Part shown: positions 3,601-22,280 of the stretch, in pieces
Numbering within the stretch: the first letter of the stretch is position 1
How the letters are laid out: each line of letters opens with the position of its first letter
Origin: Diprion similis
Taxonomy: Eukaryota > Arthropoda > Insecta > Hymenoptera > Diprionidae
Direction of reading: 5' to 3'
Assembly: GCF_021155765.1 (NCBI RefSeq)
Contig: NC_060112.1
Span: forward strand, 1,178,001-1,242,000
Length of the DNA stretch: 64,000 bases
Made by a program: the position numbers and the translations under genes
The notes under the pieces: model-generated
The model's database searches: none
What the model was told of the DNA's origin: nothing
Seen by the model: the letters and a program-made list of their open reading frames with translations, nothing else

Positions 3601-6600
3601 GAGCAGCAGAGGCTAGATGATGCCATCGGCTTCCTGCGCGACCACGCCGAGGTGAGGATCACCGTTTTTTATTTACTTGCCCATTATGTATTGAATTAAC
3701 ACAAGAATCACGTGACCACGCATTTGGTTTTTCATTTTGCAAAATGGTTCTCATTTTCTCACATCAGGTATTCGGTTTGTCTTGATTGACTAACACTTTT
3801 TTATCGGATTGTCCACACTCGTATTCTCCTTTATCTTTCTTGTTACACATTTCAATAGATTGAGACAGGATTTTATCGATAACAGTTTCTTAATTTGGAT
3901 AATTTGAGTGATTTAAGCTGATTGTTGTTATACTTTATTTTCAAAGTAGTGCGGCATGTAGAACACTAACAAACGATATAGATAATAAAGTCTTAAAGAT
4001 GCCTAAAAATCTATCGCACTTCTACCAAAATTCCAGTTACATGATAAAAATATGAATATGAAATGCATAACAAAGAAAGAAAGGAAAAAACGCACTATGG
4101 ACGATCGACCTTAGACAGACAATTAAGTTTGCACTGTATAAAATGATAATAAACATCTTATTAATGGACGACCAAAATGTAATCGAGTCGGGTCTGTGGT
4201 ATTCTGTTGGTACAGGGGACACGGATGGAGGAGAGACTGGACGATGCAATCAATGTACTAAGGAATCACGCAGAAAGTCAACTCGGCTTACACCTCGCAC
4301 CTGTAGGACCTCACGCCTCGTTATACTCCCATACCTCACCCCCACAGTTGGACCATTTGGTAAGTATATCGTCGATGCGGGTATTGACTGTCATTAATAG
4401 AGTTAGGACTTTGTTCTGAAAATTCTGTATCTCGCTTCGCAGACGAGTCCTCACCCTGCGGTAACAGTGGCACAACCCCAGGGTTCGTATCCTGGTCTGA
4501 CGCCAACACCCGACACAGATGGTTCTATAAAAATCGAGAGGTTACCTGTTTCAAATGCCAGTAAGTTAATATCCATTATTACACGAAAATATTTTCAATT
4601 ATTTGCGATGAAAGATACAAAAATCCTGTCCGGTATAGCAAGAATCTTCTTAAACAATAACACATGTCTTGCGGTTAGAGAGGCAGACTGGCTTGCAACT
4701 TGTCTGTTTGAATTTTCCGTATATCTAAACTTGAATCACCTTATTGTAAATAGCGGCGGGATTCTTATATGGGTACCTTAGAGAGAGTCTGACCATTGTG
4801 CGTTGCATCAGATATATACACGACAACTATTACAAATGACTAGATACTCGTATACGTTCTGTGAGCTATCATCCATTATCTGCCTCTAGGCCTGTGACGC
4901 ATATGGCGAATGTCTAAATTAGGATTATACTCGGTCACTTCCTGCTTTTAATTGCTAAGTGCGGTCTTGTTCATTAAAACGAACTGCATTCTACTAATAG
5001 TGGTTATCACGTATTTTTCCGCGTGTGTTCCTACTTACTTCTTTTAATATTATCTCATTTAATTTATTCCCTCGAAATATTCTTGAAACACTCTATACTC
5101 CACTCATTTAAGGCAGTATCAATAATTAGTAGAATATATATCTTTAGAAAAGAGGAAAGATCCGCCAGACAGTAGTGGTGGCGAAACGAAACCTTCGAGC
5201 AGCGACTTGGTCACTGGAGCTGGAGTCATAGGAGCGTCTACCGTCAATTCGACGTCACAAGGGAAAGGCACCAAGAGATCGCGCAGATAGTAAGTGTTTT
5301 CCTAATTACACGCAACAGTAAAAGAGAAAGCAAAAGAACAAAAACTACCAGACTCATGTCTCTCATCATGTTTTATCTTTATTTTTATTATTTTTTTTTT
5401 TTTTTAGTTATATTTCATGTATCGAAATTATTTGCTCCTTCAGTCGAACTTAACGGGTATGTTTTTGAATGGTCGGAAAATGATTATATGCTTAACAGTT
5501 AGAAATTCGATAGAAACTTTGGATTGCTTAATAGCAGGTGGTGCGGCTGATACATCAACTCCTCGTTCAATGATTACTAAGACTTACCACTGCCCGTCAC
5601 GTTTAAGATGATATGTTAGCCCAATTCATACCTCATTTTCGATCAATCAATATAAGGTACTACCATTCGGTAGCATGTTTTAGACATTCACGAATAGATT
5701 GTCGGATAGATTGACAAATAATGCCAAGTATACTCTTGATGTGGAAGAGAGAAAGCTATTGTCATTGATTTTTATCATTGTTTGACCTTAAAATTGTAAA
5801 AAAAAGTGTGACGATATAAACTAACTTGCTGTGTCTTTAAACAACCGTTGTTCGAGCGCTGAGGAAGACTGCGACGACCCGGGCACTAAAGCGGTGCGTG
5901 AAAAAGAAAGACGACAGGCTAACAACGTTCGTGAAAGGTTAGTGAGCACACGCAGTACGCACTATTAGCATTTTGGTCCAAATCCTTGTAACATTTCCTC
6001 TAAAATCTTTTTGCCTGCCTTTTGTCGTATGACAATGATCACGTCAAGATTTTATCAATCTTCAGTTTCGATAACCTCTACATTTCATGCGATAACAGTA
6101 ATCGAATCGCAAATATATACTACAATGTTATTGGACTCAATATAGTACTACTTGTCTCGTATTTTCACTTCAGCAAAATCTAATCTGTACGTTTTTGTAG
6201 TCAGTTCCTTTATTTAAGTTTACGGCCAATTAGAGGTGAACATGTCCTATCGAGCATCTATAAACCCTCAGTTTACCTGATTTTCTCACTGATTAGCCTT
6301 TTCCAAATAAAGGCAACCGTAATTGGAATATATATTAAATTTTAGAATTCATTAACTATTCTATACTACTGCTACTCAATTTCAGGCAGCAAGTATATTA
6401 TAGTATTCCTATTACCTGTCTGTCAATCCTTCTCACTACTGTAAGGCCCGTCTTTATGTAAACGGAAATAAAAATGTTTCCAGCTGCAAACAAAAATGAG
6501 ACATGTTTTAGAATTTCTCATAAGCTGGTTGGAATCAGTTTCGCTACGCAATTTAGCTACCAGGCATGTTATGTTATAGAAACCTGTTTTTTTTTTTGTA

Positions 6601-6984
6601 ATATTTGTACACATTGGTTTTTTTTTCATATTTTCTTTTGTTGTTTCAAGTGCGACAGATTTATTATATTCTAGGATAAAATTTCTCATTCCCCCTTTAC
6701 ACTAAAATCTTGTTTTATTTCAGATTAAGATGTGATTTGTAAACTCATCTCTTTACCACGTACGAGTATTCTATTTAATCCTTACTAATTAGTCTCTCGT
6801 TTTCTTACCTCGGTTTTTATACACGTTTTTATTTATTCCTGTCTATTTTATGTGATAGACAAGAATCATCTTTCTCTGAAATATAACCAGACAATCGTAC
6901 CCTTGTTTAAAACGAACTTATTCGGAAAGTCTTGATTGCCAAACGACCAAAGAAAAAGTTGGGAGAGAAAATGAGAGAGAAAAA

Positions 6985-7037
<53 letters not shown>

Positions 7038-8750
7038 GAAGAGAAAGAAACAACAAAATCATCAAACGTACAAAGAGTATGGGCCTTTCAGATAAAGTTG
7101 AAGAAAAATTAGTTTTTCCGTTTAGGATTGGCCTATCCCTGAGCCAGTTTTAAAAAAAACCTCAATAAAAATGAAATAAAAAGAAATCACCTCAGCTCCT
7201 AAGAAAATCCAATATGGACCTAAGTGCGTGTGTTCATTAATGCAAGTTTTGAAACATTTTTCGTCAATGAAAACAAGAATCACATAAATGTCATGAATCA
7301 ACAAATCATTAATTTATAAATATCAAATGAAAAAACTAACAGACTCTATCGCTCGAACAACATCACTGAACGACGGTAAAAATACATCTCACAGTTACGA
7401 AAGAATCTTTATGTACAAATAGAACTGGTTACCTGAAAATTCATCCGATTTTTGAATTATTCAGTTTTTTTTTAGACGGTGTTCGTATCTCTCACTAAAT
7501 ACGTCTTATTAACGTTCAATAGTCCAGCTCAATTCTTTTTACTTGTAATTGTTAAGATTGTCAAATCTGGTGATTAATCGAGTATTGTTATTGCGCAACT
7601 GTTGTTCGAGCGCCGAAGACGAGGATGATGATCCTGACATGAAGGCTCAGAGGGAAAAGGAGCGGAGGCAGGCCAATAATGCTAGGGAAAGGTAAGACCC
7701 TAAGTTGAAGAATAAAAAAAAAGCAAGATGCTGCGTACTAATGGTTTCTAAAAATTTTACATAAGCGAAAATATGCAATTCAATGTTACATGTTGTGTCT
7801 ATATGGATGTAATGTATGCAACGAACCGTAACATTTTAATCAACTGGCCCGTAGTCTTTGTATAGTATGTTTTTTTTGGATTCTTTTTTATTTTTGTATA
7901 AATTACTAATCGTTTTCAACTGGATCTGGCGTCTTTTAGCAAGTGGTGAAAGGGAGCTCAAACTCATTGAACAAGATACACGTTCATACAGTCTTAACAA
8001 TGTATTCTGTCATTGGTAATAACACGGATCACTCTCATGCTTTCGACATGCTCAATTGTGTACTCAATTTTTAATTTAACTACACGCTTGTGTAGTAATC
8101 AACTGGGTATGGATGGATAATAATGGATATTCCCTGTTCTTCGCTTAAACAACGGTATAAGCAATCATATTGTACTATGCGACATTCGTTGTTTTTTTTT
8201 TCTATCCAGGATACGTATTAGGGATATTAATGAAGCTTTGAAGGAGCTCGGCAGAATGTGTATGACGCACCTGAAGACCGACAAACCACAAACTAAACTT
8301 GGCATTCTTAATATGGCTGTCGAAGTTATTATGACCTTGGAACAACAAGTCAGAGGTATTTATCTTACGTCTGTCAACCTATTGTTATGCATGGTTGATA
8401 AAAATGTGAAATGACTGTGGCAGTAATTGAAAAATGATGCTCAATTCTTCTTTCCAGAACGAAATCTAAATCCAAAAGCAGCGTGTTTGAAAAGAAGAGA
8501 AGAAGAAAAAGCTGAAGACGGTTCTAAATTACCTGGACATTTAGCTACCCACATAGCACATCCTCATCCCCATCCGCACTCGCACTCGCAGCCGCCGTTC
8601 CCCGCGATGCCTGTAAGTTTTCTTTGTTCCATATAATATTTGACTTGAAATATCTCTGTCTTTCTTTTTATCGATATTAATCGGCAAACGATGTCTATGT
8701 TCCAGGGGCCACCACCTTCCCTTCAACACAACCAGTCTCAACCGCAGTAG
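537..8750 (+). CDS. da: daughterless (class I bHLH E-protein), 3' portion, spliced
   Basis: E-protein transcription factor that binds E-boxes in the nucleus as a homodimer or as partner of tissue-specific bHLH factors. Exons by frame and splice consensus: 537-621, 1369-1505, 2150-2416, 2618-2782, 3592-3651 (alternative A), 4216-4359 (alternative B), 4443-4560, 5148-5289, 5857-5937 (alternative 8a), 7611-7691 (alternative 8b), 8210-8355, 8458-8612, 8706-8750 (TAG). With exons B and 8b the visible part encodes 494 residues. Low-complexity Ser/Pro/Gly/Ala transactivation sequence comes first, then the amphipathic segment [14 protein letters not shown], a basic stretch (TKRSRR), the basic region [14 protein letters not shown], helix-loop-helix ([10 protein letters not shown]...[19 protein letters not shown]), the E-protein-specific [21 protein letters not shown] segment and a His/Pro tail (HPHPHPHSH) ending HNQSQPQ. 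The N-terminal activation domain is outside the window. Identity is certain; the exact 3' splice sites of 8a and 8b are less so. Confidence 0.95.
3421..3468. repeat. GA-rich simple repeat (GAGAAA-type) in da intron
   Basis: A run of roughly eight AGAGAA units, about 120 bp upstream of alternative exon A. Confidence 0.9.
3592..3651 (+). CDS. da: da alternative exon A (short LDDAI exon)
   Basis: A 60-nt phase 0/0 exon between GTGTGAAG and GTGAGG. It encodes [20 protein letters not shown]. This repeats the amphipathic helix of exon B ([14 protein letters not shown]) with different codons and three replaced residues. Twenty codons keep frame whether the exon is used alone, with exon B, or not at all. 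Exon B continues 28 residues past HAE; exon A stops there. Good splice sites, open frame and high GC argue for a real exon. Which combinations are spliced cannot be read from the DNA. Confidence 0.8.
4216..4359 (+). CDS. da: da alternative exon B (long LDDAI exon)
   Basis: A 144-nt phase 0/0 exon between GGTACAG and GTAAGT. It encodes [20 protein letters not shown] followed by a Leu/His/Pro-rich stretch ending PPQLDHL. The LDDAI-VLRNHA core is the conserved helix of E-protein activation domain 2, so this is the canonical version. Confidence 0.9.
5857..5937 (+). CDS. da: da alternative exon 8a (basic region, Val form)
   Basis: An 81-nt exon with donor GTTAGT, phase 2/2. It encodes [20 protein letters not shown] and then ANNVRER, the acidic linker plus the DNA-contacting basic region. 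Exon 8b at 7611-7691 has the same length, phase and position in the protein. Over the shared 10 residues [10 protein letters not shown] the two exons differ at 11 of 30 bases, all silent, so both look selected. The assigned acceptor is TTCGAG|CGC. The Ala of the usual NNARER is Val here. Confidence 0.85.
6983..7035. repeat. (GA)n simple repeat in da intron
   Basis: An almost pure GA dinucleotide tract between alternative exons 8a and 8b. Confidence 0.9.
7611..7691 (+). CDS. da: da alternative exon 8b (basic region, canonical form)
   Basis: An 81-nt exon with donor GTAAGA, phase 2/2. It encodes [20 protein letters not shown] and then ANNARER, matching the usual E-protein basic region. It is the alternative to exon 8a. 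Both join the helix-loop-helix exon at 8210 with the same phase (AG + G = Arg). Including both would keep frame but duplicate the basic region, so exclusive use is the likely mode (inference). Confidence 0.9.
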
Positions 8751-12975: not shown

Positions 12976-13389
12976 TAGGGCTGTGCGGGTTCCCGAAATC
13001 TCGGATTAATAAGTTCGGGTTGGGGACAGGTTTTTCGATGATCCCGGAATAGTCGGGAAACCCGAAACCTTCGCGAAACCCGAAATCCTTGAGAAACGTG
13101 GGTAATAATCCAATTCACCTAATATTAATAGTATTGAACAAATACTAAATACTAAATAATAATAGTAAATAGTACATCTAAATGCCGTCAATATTTTCAG
13201 TTAAGAGTATATCATCTTTCATTGGGAGATCCGTGAATCCCGAAAATTTTGAAAAAACTGATATTTTCGAGTATCCCGACATTTTCATGACTCCCGATGT
13301 TTTCGGGCATCTCATGATTTTCGGAGATCCCGAAAAACTCGGGAACCCGACCCGACGTCCCGACGAATTCTGATACCCGCGCAGCCCTA
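12976..13389. mobile_element. hAT-like non-autonomous foldback element (MITE)
   Basis: A 414-bp element with terminal inverted repeats TAGGGCTGTGCGGGT and, on the opposite strand at the far end, TAGGGCTGCGCGGGT. The inner flanks are full of CCCGAA/TTCGGG motifs that let the arms fold back. It is bordered by GTATGTAT at 12968-12975 and 13390-13397, an 8-bp direct repeat as hAT transposases leave. No transposase frame. Caveat: the surrounding DNA is GTAT-rich, so the 8-bp match could be partly chance. Confidence 0.75.
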
Positions 13390-13397
13390 GTATGTAT

Positions 13398-16300
13398 GTA
13401 TATTTTTTTTGTCTTTTCTTTATTTCATTATTTCATGTCGATGATATATTTTTTTTTGCAATATTATTATATATTATTGTACTTGAAAGATCATATTTCA
13501 AGCTGCATTATTATGTTATCAAAGTGAGTTTTAAAAAGAAAAAAAAGGAAAAAAAAAACGACGCACTGAAATCTGAATTTAATCATTACAAAATAACGTT
13601 ATGTCTATACAGTATCGTATTAAGGAAGTTAAAAAAATAAAATAAAAAAAATAAATAGAAATAACAAATCCCACGCTGGTATATGCAAGTTCCTTTCTCC
13701 ACGCAAAATTTCTCTCTGTTCGCAAATTGTCGCGGAGAAATTTTCTTAAAATAAATTTCCAATGAAAAAAAAAATGACAATTGTTTGAACGGACAGGAAT
13801 TTCGAACTGTGGAGAAAGAGTGGGAAGGCATGAATTCTGCTCTACAATTACTGAATATAATAAGTTAAATTGTACATTGTGACATAAAATTTAAGCTGCT
13901 AAAAAATGCGTGCGTGAGCTGCTGCAGGTGAAGAACTTTTTTAAAAACAAAAACATTGAAAAAAAAAAGAAATATTCAAAGAAAAAAATCATGTAATATA
14001 TAACTATAATAGTTTTTAAGTCAGTTTAAGCTAGATTTTGTCAATAGTTCTAGGTAGTGAAATGTATGCGTGAACAGGCAAAAGTATGCTGTTCATGGAA
14101 GAAGCGAATGTTGTATGATCTACGCGTATAAAAAAAAAATATTTGAGAAAAATGTTTAATTACTAGTAATATTATTATCACTAATAATATAATAAATGTG
14201 CCATTTTTCCATAAAACCACGTTTTATACCCATCATTCCGTTTACATACACACACGCATACATACTACCGTCGTCGCCCTCTGCTATTCCTGGATTTAAC
14301 TTCAGGCTTTCAATACCTTTGTAAGACAGGTTTTATCTTTTATAAGACTTAATTTATCCTTTTCCGGAATTTCAGACAGGTCTCTGAAGATTTTAAGTGA
14401 AATTAATCAGAGAAGTTGTATAATTGTGCCTCATCATATTTTGCATACGTTTATTTATTTCGTTTGAAAATATATTTCTTTCAAAATATTTACAACTCAA
14501 TCACACCTTATATTCAAAAAATTAGGTATCCTGATGCATTTACAATATTTTTGCGTGATCAACATTCTAATATTTATGATTTGAAAAGCTTACACTTCCT
14601 GTTATTCTAACTTCTTTTTCTCTCATCTTCCAAAGTAATCGAGCAGTTAAATGTAAGTGAAGCAATTGATCAAACCATAAATTCAGCTACTGTATATGAA
14701 AACTTTTAACACAGCGCTATATTTGAATACTTTATGTGGAGATGTTTCGAAACTATGGCCACGACTTTCGGGTGGCTCTGGGCTTGCGCTAAAACCAGTT
14801 TGAATAAGTAAAGGTAATTTCGTAAAAGGCAAAAGTTTCTCTTACATGTAACGGTGTATTTCAGACTGTATGGTCGATTGAAGATTGATAAACAAGAGGG
14901 GAAAATACTCATTTAATTCCCGTTTAAAAATAATACGTATTCAAGTGTCAATTAATTCTTAATTTGTGCGTACTTTTACAGAATTATCAAGTTGACCACA
15001 ACAAGCGCTTCTACATACGCATATGATCATGCAAAAGTATTAAGAATTAGGTATCTAAAATTAAATATGTCTTACATAAATCGATAACATTACATCATCG
15101 GTCTTATGATCGTATAGCAAAGTCCTTGAACCATCTTTTTTTTTATGACATCCGGGGGATTCCTTGAGACTTTGACCAAGTGAAAGTTGTATACTTTATT
15201 ACATATTTTGAAACCATAACCCGTGAATATATTAAATGCTTATTATCGGTCGGTAATTACCGATATATTATGCTTGAGCTAATTGGCAAGAGTGCGTTTG
15301 ATTAGCAAGAAATATTTACAGTTCTTCATTATAGGTATTATCATACAAGTCTTTTTATGTTAAAAAAAAACTTTTCTACACTTATTTCATTTGTATTATT
15401 CTGAGATCGTCCAAAAATCCTGCTACAACTTTTCATAAAAATCTTATCTTACTAATTCATTGATCATTGATAAGTCTACAGATTGTCCAAAAGATAGTAT
15501 GAGAAAAACATCTTAGTCACGCTGTTTTGCTTTCAAGATTACTTGACCTACGTATATATCGCGATTGTGTACCAGGAATTTTGGAATTCTTTGTAACAAA
15601 GTCAAGAATACTAGTTAATTTGAAGGAGCATGAAATTGGACAAAGGACGTTTCATCTGTTATGATCTCTTACGAAATTATACGTTATGCTTTTATATCTC
15701 AGACAAGACGCTTAACAGGCTTTGGCCCCAGTTCTAATTATTCAGTTACTCTGACTTTGCTTTATTCTACTCGAAGCTTAACTAATTTGAAGTTTACAAC
15801 AATCCAATCATTCTTTCCAATATTATGCTTGTAGTCGGATTCTATTTTGCTATCACTTAAATTGCATGGAAGAACAAAGAATGTTTATAGTGCTATATTG
15901 CGTGTACATCATTTTGACGTACAAATGACACGAATAGTCGACTCTTACATGAAATAAAAAATATACAATTTCGTTGCTGTTACCTATACTATTCAGTGTC
16001 TATTAGTTTGAAATTTAGAAGCCACTCAAGGATATTTTTACCATTCATTGGGATTCACTTTAAAGTATGGTTGTTACTATAATAACTTTATAATATTGTA
16101 ATATGGTTACTGACCAACTTACCTAATATCAATGAAAGCAAAAAAAGACATAAAATGTAAAAAGAAACCAGGAGAATGAAACCTCACCTCACCTCATCTC
16201 AACTTATCTGTATTGCAATACCTCGAAACTCAAAGCAACAGATAAATATAATAATAATAATAATAAATGAATTTACGTTGGTAATTGGTAATGAAGTTAA

Positions 16301-16697: not shown

Positions 16698-18481
16698 CTA
16701 AACAATGGGAGGATCATCATCATCTTCATCCCTAGTAACTAAAACATTGCCGTAACGGTTTTGCCGGTACTGTCTCAACCGCTGAACCCATTTGTATCTT
16801 CTTGCACTTAAAAAGACAAGTGCTCCTAACAAGATCAGGAATAGCGGTATCAGAAGACCTGCTGTTACTCCTCCTGAAAATATTACAACGTCGGATTAGA
16901 GAATGCTATCAAAACAACTATATTGACGATTGTACTTCACAACGAGCCTGAGAATTAATAAAAACTCACCCCCTGAACTGTCTCCAGTTTCCTCTTTCAT
17001 GGTACTAGAGTCAATCACAGACTCTGTTGTTGTTGGAATTAAGACACATTTGTCATTTAGTCTTTGGTAATTTGGGAGACATATACATTCGCCCATTTGA
17101 TTATTCATTTGCTTGCAAGTCTCATTTTTGCTGCATCCATCGTCTGGCAATAACGAAATTATTGAACACGTTTTTTTGGCCTCTGAAAATTCAAGATTCA
17201 AACGTAATAATATTTCCTTGTTTATTTTACAGTGTTTCAAACGAACGCAAACATACGGTCGATCATTTTTGTTCCAATTTTGTGTTTCAAACTGTCGAAA
17301 CTAAAAACCTACTTCAACAAAAAGCGTAGAAGATTTAAAGTAAAGTAGGCAACTAGTATTCATTTTCTGTTTGTCGAGGGGTCAAGATTCATGAGGTTAC
17401 TTGGAACGCGTTGTGCTACGTTCAGTTACATCAACCAGATGTTGATGTGCATAGATTGACATCACCGGTGTGACCTATCCTTGCGTACGGCACGGCTTTT
17501 GATTGGCTAAATAACTTAATTGAGATAAATTAGTTTCATCAACCAAATGGACCAAGATAATGCGTCTGGATATAATCCAGGAATGAAATAGTGATTCAAA
17601 TTAGTAGCAACTAGTGTGGCATGAATTCAATGGAATCAAGTAGTTGATTTTTGTTGCTTTCCTTACTTCATGCCCCTGGCCTGACCCTTGTCATTGGATT
17701 ATTTATTTAAGATAATATATAGTACTTGAACATATATATGTATATCTACATATACTGCATATATTGTTGGCAGGGCAACAGGCTTATATTTCTGTTGGTA
17801 AAGCGATGATAGACCTAATGAGCAATGGAATGGTGACCAAGCGTATTTGATTATTTCCCAATCGGTTTTTGCGATGTTGGCAAGAAAGAAATGAAAAGAA
17901 ACAAAAGAGAAAATTATCTAATCTTTGAGGAAGATTTGTAGATAAATTTCATGTGCATTATTATATTAACGCTAACTATCGTACTTTCTTGATGTACAAA
18001 GTATAGAGAGTGAACTAGGGAGAGATGAAGAAAACACAAGAAATGCCTCGATATTTATAGACATAACAAGTAATGTCGGAAGTTCGAAAAGACATTACTG
18101 CAAGAGGAACTCAACTTTTCAGAGTAGAATTTGAAAAGCTTGAATTCGCGATTCTCTTCTCAATCGTGTTAGATGTTACTACACGCGTTACTGTCAGCTT
18201 TGTCAAACGAAAGATATATATGATCGCGTCAACGGATGTAAATTATCGCGTCGGTGGGGTCAGTCGCAGCTATCTTTAGTTAATGTCAATTTGTGCGTTA
18301 CAGTTGCGACGATGTCAAGCTCTATGCCTACAAGCAAGAGCGACAGTATCTGCTGCATACGATTGTTGACAACATTGGAATATAATTTTTTACCTGTAAC
18401 AAACTGCGACAAGATCACAGCTACAATGCACAGAGAAGCGAAAACCTCACAGCTCAAGTTCCACATCTTCGCGTATAACAA
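16698..18481 (-). CDS. small type I membrane protein with one EGF-like module
   Basis: Three exons, transcribed leftward: 18394-18481, 16970-17182 and 16698-16873; all junctions keep frame with GT-AG signals. The product has 158 residues. A hydrophobic signal peptide (VFASLCIVAVILSQFVT) is followed by a six-cysteine module (C at TCS, GCS, ETC, GEC, CIC and DKC) of EGF-like spacing, a Ser/Thr/Glu-rich stalk, one membrane segment (GLLIPLFLILLGALVFL), a basic stop-transfer sequence (SARRYKWVQRLRQYRQNR) and a short acidic tail (RDEDDDDPPIV). The N-terminus is therefore predicted to face out and the tail to be cytosolic. Translation may begin at the first Met or at the second, five codons later (18466). 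I do not recognise the family and assign no function. Confidence 0.82.
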
Positions 18482-19355: not shown

Positions 19356-22280
19356 ATGGCCTGGACTTACTATCAAAAAGTACTGGCCATTCTTATGGTC
19401 ATTACTGGATCCCTCAACACGCTATCCGTGAAGTGAGTTGAAAGATTTTAGTTCTCTTGTATTTCCTACTCGTCATCCTGTTTTGGGACATTGCTCGAGT
19501 TGTTGTATTATTTTTCAGATACGCGGACCAGCAAATAGTGGCAGGTCAAGATGAAGAACCTCGACATTTCAATCATCCCTTCATGCAATCGTCATTTATG
19601 TTTCTGGGCGAAATGTCTTGCATGCTGCTATTTAAAATTGCTTTTTGCTACTACACCCGGCAGATGGTATGAAAAAGTCAGAATTTTTACTACTATTTGA
19701 ATTATTGTAGCTACTGGCTATGCCTCCATCAGCAAACATTCGATATACAACAATTAGTTCTTATCTATGTCAGCATGTGTCTATTATACTTTGTAGATAA
19801 TGTGACAAAGGTCAACTGTACCCAGACTTCACTCCCAACTTGCACTTTATTACCATAGGATGAATCATCGTGAATCATGACACAAGATAAAACAAACTGT
19901 TATACGAACCTTATCTATGCATTTCTGAAAGTCTAGCATGTAATTGGAGAAACAAAAAACTGATTTACGCACCACTCAAAATAATTACTTACTTTATTTG
20001 TTATTACAGGATGGCAGTGTCGACTCCAATTCTTTGACAAAGGGTTCCCGAAATTTTAGTCCACTTGTATTACTCGTACCAGCAATGTGTGATATGTTTG
20101 CAACGTCTTTAATGTACGTTGGGCTGAACATGACGTATGCTAGTAGCTTTCAAATGCTGCGAGGCGCAGTTATAGTCTTTACTGGAATGCTCTCAGTAGG
20201 ATTCTTGGATCGGAAGTTGGGATCGAGAGAGTGGTTTGGAATTTGCCTTATTATAAACGGCTTGTCCTTGGTTGGGCTGAGCGATTTTATCATGCAAAAT
20301 AACAGCAATGTCAGTACAAATTCTATTATCACTGGCGATTTACTCATCATTTGTGCACAGGTAAAATAGTGATTTCTGTTATCGGCTCACATAAACAATG
20401 CTTATTCATAGTTTATCACTTATTCATATTCACTCTTTGCAAACTAAATTAATAATCTCTCAAGCAGATAGAGACGATTGAAACAATACTAAAACTGTAC
20501 CGGTAAAATACACTGGATACAGGTGTAAAACTCAGTGTTCATCGAACAACAGAACAAATTCAATACCAAAAGTTCCACTAGATTCAAAAAAAATATGCAT
20601 AAAATTTAGAAATCGTTATTGGAAGTATAATTATTTTATCTGCTTCAATATTGAAGGTGATTACTGCAGTTCAAATGGTAGTGGAAGAAAAATACGTCTC
20701 TGGATTGGACATACCTGCGCTCCAGGCAGTTGGTTGGGAAGGTAGAGTAGGAAATCGGCTCTCTAATTTGATTATGTTCAATAAGCTGTTAACTAGAGTA
20801 TTCTTATGAAGTTTAATAATCTGAAAACCTTTGAATCCCTTGAATTATTGTAGAATTTTTTGGACCATGGGGACTTCTTGAATCTCAGAGAACTTTTGGA
20901 TTGTGCCGAGAATTTTTGGTATCCTTGCCGGGTTTTATAAAATTGTTCATATTTTTATTTGAACGATTAAACATATTCAGTTGAAATTTTGATTTCTCTC
21001 ATTTTGTTGATTTTTCGACAGTCATATAAATATAGAAATGTGGCATACAAAAATCTGAAAATTGTTATCCGTACTTTCGGTGGAATGTCTTATAACAGCC
21101 TAAAAGCTTGATACAATTCTGAGTGACGCGCAACAAAGTTTAGCTACTTGGTATGAAAGATCCCTAAATAGTATTTACAGTTTACAGAGTATTGTATACA
21201 GTGTAAGTGAAATTGAAACCATTGCATAATCAATTCAATGCAAAAATGTATCAGTGCCTCATAAATTGTAAGAAAATTATTTCAATTCGAAAATTAAGTG
21301 TGAAGACAAAGCCATACCTCTGAAATATGTTATATAAACAGTTGGTTTCCTTCCGAACAATTTCACCACCTGGTTTTTGTCAATTCATGCTGTGAAAGTA
21401 AAGATATAAGCGTTTTAAAAATAAGTGATCATAAAAAAAGTAATTTTTTTTTAAACTTGATTCGGAACACTGCAGTATGTCATTTATTCTGACAACTGTA
21501 TCATGGAATTTCATCTTTACAATCAGGCTCGTATCGACAAACTTGAAATTCTGTTTCTGTGGTTACAGGTATTTTTGGATTCCTTGGAATATGCCTTGCT
21601 ATGATTCCGCTCAATTACATATATGCGTCGCCACCTTTTGCTGACAACTCTCGAGGCACATTAGAAGCTACTGTAGATGCCCTTGTTCAAATTGGCAACA
21701 GCATACATTTGCTTATGGCAATTATTGGTACGTGCATGTTGGATGATCGCAATTCTTGTATCTTTCTTTTTGACTCCAGCTGAATTCCCGAATTTATTCA
21801 AGATACTAATCCATTGCTAATCTACTTGCTTGTTAAACTTGAAAGGTATGACTGTGAGCATAGCATTCTTCAACTTTGCTGGCGTAAGTGTTACAAAAGA
21901 AATAAGCGCCACTACAAGAATGGTGTTAGACAGTGTGAGGACATTGGTAATATGGGCATTCTCTTTGGCATTTGAATGGCAGACTTTTCATTATCTTCAG
22001 GTAATTATGCAAATCTTATTAGTAAACTCGTACTTTCGATTTCAGAATGATTTTTTACCATTTCAGTATCCAGTTATTTCGCAATTATATGGTCCTTCTC
22101 TCTGTCTTTTAGCTCATAGGTTTTGCAGTTTTACTAATTGGTATGTCCTGCTACAACAATATTGTTGTACCACAATTGTTCCGGAAGATTCGATGCCGCT
22201 TGGGACGTCATCAGCCCCCCCAGGATGAAGAAAGCGTTATCAATACGGCAGCCGACGACGTTACCAATAGAGATGAATAA
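19356..22280 (+). CDS. Slc35f6: SLC35F6-type transporter (drug/metabolite superfamily), spliced
   Basis: Seven coding exons: 19356-19432, 19519-19666, 20010-20360, 20657-20741, 21569-21727, 21846-22000 and 22113-22280 (TAA). All junctions are in frame and the product has 380 residues, close to vertebrate SLC35F6 (about 371, from memory). It begins MAWTYYQKVLAILMVITGSL and carries about ten hydrophobic segments, including LVLLVPAMCDMFATSLMYVG, the conserved MLRGAVIVFTGMLSVGFL followed by basic residues, ICLAMIPLNYIY and LIGFAVLLIGMSCYNNIVV. The charged C-terminus is probably cytosolic. Relatives are multi-pass proteins reported in lysosomal or mitochondrial membranes; the substrate is unknown. 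It is head-to-head with the EGF-module gene. Confidence 0.92.

Follow-up and report, generated by a model that had tools for sequence, protein, structure and literature searches.

The window analysed here, 64,000 nucleotides of Diprion similis contig NC_060112.1 (positions 1,178,001 to 1,242,000), contains the gene daughterless (da), in which two homologous exons, 8a and 8b, encode alternative versions of the acidic linker and basic region of the protein. The account we lean towards is that these exons are used singly, and that the choice between them is made by an RNA pairing of the docking/selector type, which would hide one of the two 3' splice sites. What appears to be new, as read from the DNA, is a 12-nt word common to both 3' splice sites together with an antisense partner located between the exons. 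The sequence-only reading that preceded this analysis had noted neither these elements nor the TAG that arises when both exons are skipped. The parts concerned are as follows.

5148..5289, plus strand: exon 7 of da, ending in ...KGTKRSRR and the bases TA before the donor gtaagt; its start was placed by eye directly after ctttag.
5857..5937, plus strand: exon 8a, (Y), 26 whole codons and (R).
7611..7691, plus strand: exon 8b, (Y), 26 whole codons and (R).
8210..8355, plus strand: exon 9, encoding the remaining basic region, helix 1, loop and helix 2.
5847..5858, plus strand: element Sa, GTTGTTCGAGCG, spanning the 3' splice site of exon 8a (AG at 5855-5856).
7601..7612, plus strand: element Sb, GTTGTTCGAGCG, spanning the 3' splice site of exon 8b (AG at 7609-7610).
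7350..7362, plus strand: element D1, CGCTCGAACAACA, a perfect complement of 12 nt of Sa and 13 nt of Sb.
8142..8156, plus strand: element D2, CGCTTAAACAACGGT, an imperfect complement of Sa/Sb (one mismatch, one or two G-U pairs) and candidate second dock.

The 12-mer GTTGTTCGAGCG occupies positions -10 to +2 of both the 8a and the 8b acceptor, and its exact reverse complement is found at 7350-7361, within D1. When one mismatch at most was allowed, the window held three matches, compared with 0.25 expected, namely the two acceptors and one opposite-strand copy at 7350-7361, and none of 100 shuffles had three. The 269-Mb genome contains 14 exact matches, three of them at the da locus; from the 11 others, counted on two strands, about 6e-5 antisense copies are expected in the 2.9-kb interval between exons 7 and 9. 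We also scored the longest word that the two 3' splice-site windows share and for which the introns contain a complement (the exact-word test). This word is 12 long at da, a length reached by 0/5,000 dinucleotide shuffles (three reach 11), and in real-sequence controls words longer than 10 occurred in 0/518 other segments of the window and in 0/160 segments from 20 stretches elsewhere in the genome. The arrangement characteristic of docking/selector systems, a repeated element by each exon that is complementary to a common partner, is found at this locus, and D1 is well supported by these comparisons as the predicted partner. The possibility that D1 is the antisense remnant of a third exon was considered and rejected, the flanks of D1 being by eye unlike the exon or the exon flanks.

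The acceptor word also stands out from its surroundings. When the introns before 8a and 8b are aligned on their acceptors, the last 10 bases are identical and the next 10 share six, while the ten blocks above share two to five of ten; when 30-mers were drawn in random pairs from the rest of the window, 15 of 20,000 draws had a word of at least 10 in common. At position -3 both acceptors carry G, versus C at exons 9, 10 and 11. Since the upstream intron has diverged and the silent sites of the exons are saturated (see below), the word has probably been kept for its bases.

Two other explanations for the kept word have to be weighed at this point. The first, in which the exons are mutually exclusive and RNA-binding proteins read the acceptor word or other motifs, with D1 a chance complement or decoy, would account for a word conserved between the copies as a protein site would be, and the choice between E12 and E47 in vertebrate TCF3 is indeed controlled by proteins (hnRNP and PTB factors). 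We consider it unlikely, because a perfect 12-nt antisense match would hardly occur by chance in this particular 1.7-kb intron. The second holds that the word is present or past coding sequence, read as Cys-Ser-Ser in frame through a non-AG acceptor nine bases upstream: TA, TTGTTCGAG and CGCC together read Y-C-S-S-A, and Cys-Ser-Ser are presumably the residues that follow RRY in Drosophila Da. This is very improbable, as there is no AG between the word and -30 (8b) or -52 (8a), three identical codons would be odd when 16 of the 19 same-residue codons of the exons have changed, and D1 would be left unexplained. As an observation in its own right, the last nine intron bases at 5848-5857 and 7602-7611 read in frame as Cys-Ser-Ser after Tyr, a possible trace of a shifted acceptor.

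The exon pair itself, first proposed in a sequence-only reading of this DNA, was borne out by inspection: 8a and 8b have AG...GT borders, equal lengths of 81 nt and equal phase (phase 2), each entering after TA and leaving as AG followed by G, in frame into exon 9 at 8210. The codon table likewise confirms that in the shared 10-residue peptide 11 of 30 bases differ between the exons, all of them silently. Over the 26 whole codons, 31/78 nucleotides and 7/26 residues differ, and 16 of the 19 codons for the same residue differ silently; by the Nei-Gojobori method the silent proportion exceeds 1 (saturated), against 0.18 for replacements. When 31 changes were placed at random in neutral simulations, 0 of 20,000 runs altered so few residues, and 12,078 of the 20,000 gained a stop. 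With silent sites saturated, few residues changed and no simulation matching, exon 8a must be regarded as old and constrained and not as decaying, and the long selection on both exons claimed earlier is upheld by the codon comparison and the simulations. On this sequence evidence 8a and 8b are a duplicated, selectively maintained and splice-competent exon pair under long purifying selection. They show the features that define mutually exclusive pairs at the sequence level (homology, equal phase, compatible length, same place in the protein). No third copy was found in a six-frame scan of the window with the 14-residue basic-region motif (at least 7/14 residues), which returned 8a, 8b and two weak, non-exon-like matches. 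The intron between the exons also contains a (GA)n tract (6983-7036), a possible site for a GA-binding protein.

We infer that the exons are used one at a time in the mRNA. Leaving out both joins TA to G, creating a TAG stop at the exon 7/9 junction, and such a failure would therefore be unproductive. Joining 8a to 8b stays in frame, adding 27 residues with a VRES junction. An absence of strict exclusion, with both exons included or 8a a rarely used cassette, would agree with this in-frame double inclusion and with donors that are all of normal U2 type; given the equal length and phase, the same position in the protein, and the kept acceptor word with its complement, we consider it improbable.

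Exclusion can be enforced by short introns, U2/U12 mismatch, nonsense-mediated decay or competing structures (Ivanov and Pervouchine, PMC6071210). The intron between 8a and 8b (5938-7610) measures 1,673 nt and is not too short for splicing, which rules out the first route. The donors are U2-type (GTAAGT, GTTAGT, GTAAGA), ruling out the second, and a stop codon acting against double inclusion is ruled out by the open frame of 8a+8b. Because these three routes fail, pairing is favoured as the mechanism. Exclusion through a distant branch point, as in the case of OGDH (PMC7969005), need not be invoked, since branch-like sites of ordinary placement (CTAAC, TTAAT) lie about 36 nt before both acceptors.

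The switch would work as follows. In the pre-mRNA the acceptor word of one exon would pair with D1 (or D2), placing the AG inside a helix where the splicing machinery would not see it; it is this position of the AG that favours hiding over activation. With D1 on 8b, exon 7 would join 8a and 8a would join exon 9, splicing from 8a to 8b being blocked because the 8b acceptor is covered. 8b would be used when 8a occupies D1, or when proteins or heat open D1. In either state the resulting E protein would keep the same dimerisation helices and carry the linker and basic region of one exon or the other. The arrangement of pairing elements is one that would favour exclusive use.

The swap is indeed limited to the acidic linker and basic region, as had been proposed, the helices being encoded by the shared exon 9. 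The residues through which E47 contacts the E-box are Arg548, Asn551, Asn552, Glu555, Arg556, Arg558, Asn563 and Lys585 (PMC8283981). All eight are the same in the 8a form (alignment to E2A chains, own numbering). Within the core, 8a changes only the Ala553 position, to Val, which we take to be the residue of Twist there; the remaining differences fall in the acidic linker and at one residue ahead of REKERR. The suggestion that the choice alters DNA contact is thus less supported; as to a change of partner, partner choice lies mainly in the helices common to both forms. Since 8a keeps the E-box residues, a tuned affinity or homodimer activity is likelier than a new site specificity, and the two forms most likely differ, as far as their sequences predict, in strength of E-box binding or in homodimer activity and not in specificity. 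A precedent is that E12 is reported to bind DNA less than E47 (PMC8283981). Insect proneural proteins and many other bHLH (basic helix-loop-helix) factors share Da as a partner, so that switching its basic region would adjust many programmes together.

The pairings were further evaluated by energy and by folding. Duplex energies of the two S/D1 pairings are similar at 37 C (-24.6 and -22.5 kcal/mol). In a test of how well a site pairs with both acceptors, compared with shuffles and real segments, a first dock as good was found in 3/400 shuffles, and a second-best dock as good as D2 in 0/400. D1 and D2 are alike at 10 of 12 core bases, and D2 may be a second dock, a weaker partner 3' of 8b; it is suggestive only, because, taken singly, 14/400 shuffles hold some site as good. 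Global folding covered 5250-8260, and folds of about 3 kb are rough. At 20, 30 and 37 C, Sb:D1 formed with a probability of about 1.0 for 11/12 bases and 0.60-0.84 at the last base, Sa:D2 with about 0.96, 0.90 and 0.55, respectively, one base being unpaired, and Sa:D1 with 0.00. Constrained folds at 20 C gave -974.8 kcal/mol for the best structure, -967.8 for Sb:D1 with Sa open, -948.0 for Sa:D1 with Sb open, -955.7 for Sa:D1 with Sb:D2, and -952.2 with both S elements open; the corresponding values at 30 C were -771.6, -764.1, -749.3, -752.9 and -750.0.

Several of these results, and one from the literature, weigh against a switch that hides one acceptor at a time. By energy, 12 of 106 segments from the window (mean GC 0.40 vs 0.33) match the first dock and 13 match the second, as do 4/160 and 6/160 genome segments, respectively; of 50 GC-poor genome segments (GC below 0.36), none matches either. 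Energy-only statistics are thus weak against real, GC-richer sequence, and it is the exact-word test that carries the case. D1 does not appear to be evenly contested, since folding strongly prefers Sb:D1: Sa:D1 (Sb open) is worse than Sb:D1 (Sa open) by 14.8 (30 C) to 19.8 (20 C) kcal/mol and has no advantage over a fold in which both S elements are open. If these modelled energies hold, Sa:D1 must depend, where it forms, either on pairing ahead of the transcription of Sb or on proteins. The best fold hides both acceptors and would therefore yield the TAG product. A switch that normally conceals 8b would also make the divergent 8a the standard form, and this sits badly with the fact that it is 8b that resembles E47 at the Ala553 position. 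The region of the D1-Sb hairpin is not unusually stable (z -0.80; 40/200 shuffles fold as well), and in Dscam docking/selector pairing activates an exon and does not hide it (PMC6071210, PMC11802352).

This last point leads to a further alternative, in which the exons are mutually exclusive and pairing activates them, Sa:D1 and Sb:D2 each enclosing and promoting its own exon as in the bidirectional model of srp. D1 follows 8a and D2 follows 8b, and their 10 shared core bases look like the outcome of copying acceptor arm, exon and downstream arm as one unit, consistent with a partial-duplication scenario (PMC6071210). We regard this alternative as rather unlikely: the AG itself would be paired, and a splice site inside a helix is normally hidden; in folding, the combination of Sb:D1 and Sa:D2 is favoured by 18 to 19 kcal/mol over that of Sa:D1 and Sb:D2; and the likeness of D1 and D2 is expected because both complement the same word. 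Hiding of one acceptor remains the account that we lean towards.

The gene is da, an E protein (class I bHLH, daughterless/TCF3/TCF4/TCF12 group). Either exon 8a or 8b together with exon 9 gives a complete bHLH, which matches PF00010 at 45.9 bits for the 8a form and 47.5 for the 8b form; the best PDB match of the 8a form is E2A (8ubk, E 7e-38), and two upstream-exon peptides align to residues 337-431 of E2A, an activation/repression stretch (E 1.7e-6). When the bHLH peptide was compared with the species' own 269-Mb genome (13 candidates scored), the four exon-wise matches with E<=0.001 were all at the da locus. A search for relatives with the exon 9 peptide gave 24 stretches with a pattern match in a viral contig collection and 362 in a genome contig collection, of which none was confirmed in either. 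The gene continues with two further exons, and other features lie elsewhere in the window.

8458..8612, plus strand: exon 10 of da, borders corrected by eye.
8706..8750, plus strand: last coding exon of da, ending in ...QSQPQ, then TAG.
13006-13432: on both strands, open frames in which short phrases like SGFPSFSGSPK recur, suggesting a minisatellite.
16698-17300, minus strand: open frames with a cysteine-rich and then a membrane-helix-like stretch, apparently a neighbouring gene.
19944-20369, plus strand: open frame with what we take to be likeness to a solute-carrier (SLC35F-like) exon.

Of the open-access papers that a literature search listed, none was seen to report a duplication of the basic-region exon in da; for Cotesia vestalis, 19 da isoforms are reported (PMC8228208). 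Vertebrate TCF3 (E2A), with its E12 and E47 forms, resembles da in being an E protein with tandem homologous exons chosen one at a time, and in both the exchange takes in the acidic stretch that precedes the basic region; an inhibitory domain of E12 is said to have been described by Sun in 1991. However, the TCF3 forms differ through the bHLH domain, while da exchanges only the 81-nt linker and basic region: the helix-bearing exon 9 follows either exon, so that the whole-bHLH exchange of E12/E47 is not found here, and a convergent origin of the likeness is plausible. The docking/selector systems (Dscam exon 6, 14-3-3zeta, Mhc, MRP1) and the bidirectional ones (srp, hymenopteran Dscam exon 4) share with da the tandem homologous exons, a short repeated element by each exon and its complement in the same introns, and srp is also a transcription factor with an exchanged DNA-binding part. 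At da, in contrast, the best dock (D1) is placed between the exons instead of flanking the cluster, and the AG of the 3' splice site falls within the selector-like word. An overlap of selector and exon is not new by itself, as selectors lying partly inside exons are reported for exon 6 of Dscam1 in Coleoptera (PMC8042237).

Another close comparison is da of the butterfly Bicyclus anynana, the same gene, in which two mutually exclusive exons, validated by quantitative PCR and PCR, are used in opposite ways in the seasonal (temperature) forms, with an inclusion difference of 0.84 (Tian and Monteiro 2022, PMC9218548). They are a candidate counterpart of 8a/8b, the available account leaving unstated which part of Da they encode and how one of them is selected. 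We give little credence at present to the wider proposal that the S/D pairings form a temperature-sensitive switch at the da acceptors of bees and butterflies, rearing temperature setting the form of Da and the butterfly's seasonal exons being the same pair. Were the Bicyclus pair 8a/8b, exclusive use in insects would already have been shown and heat-sensitive pairing would be a natural cause; the S and D elements provide a concrete hypothesis for the temperature response of da splicing in the butterfly.

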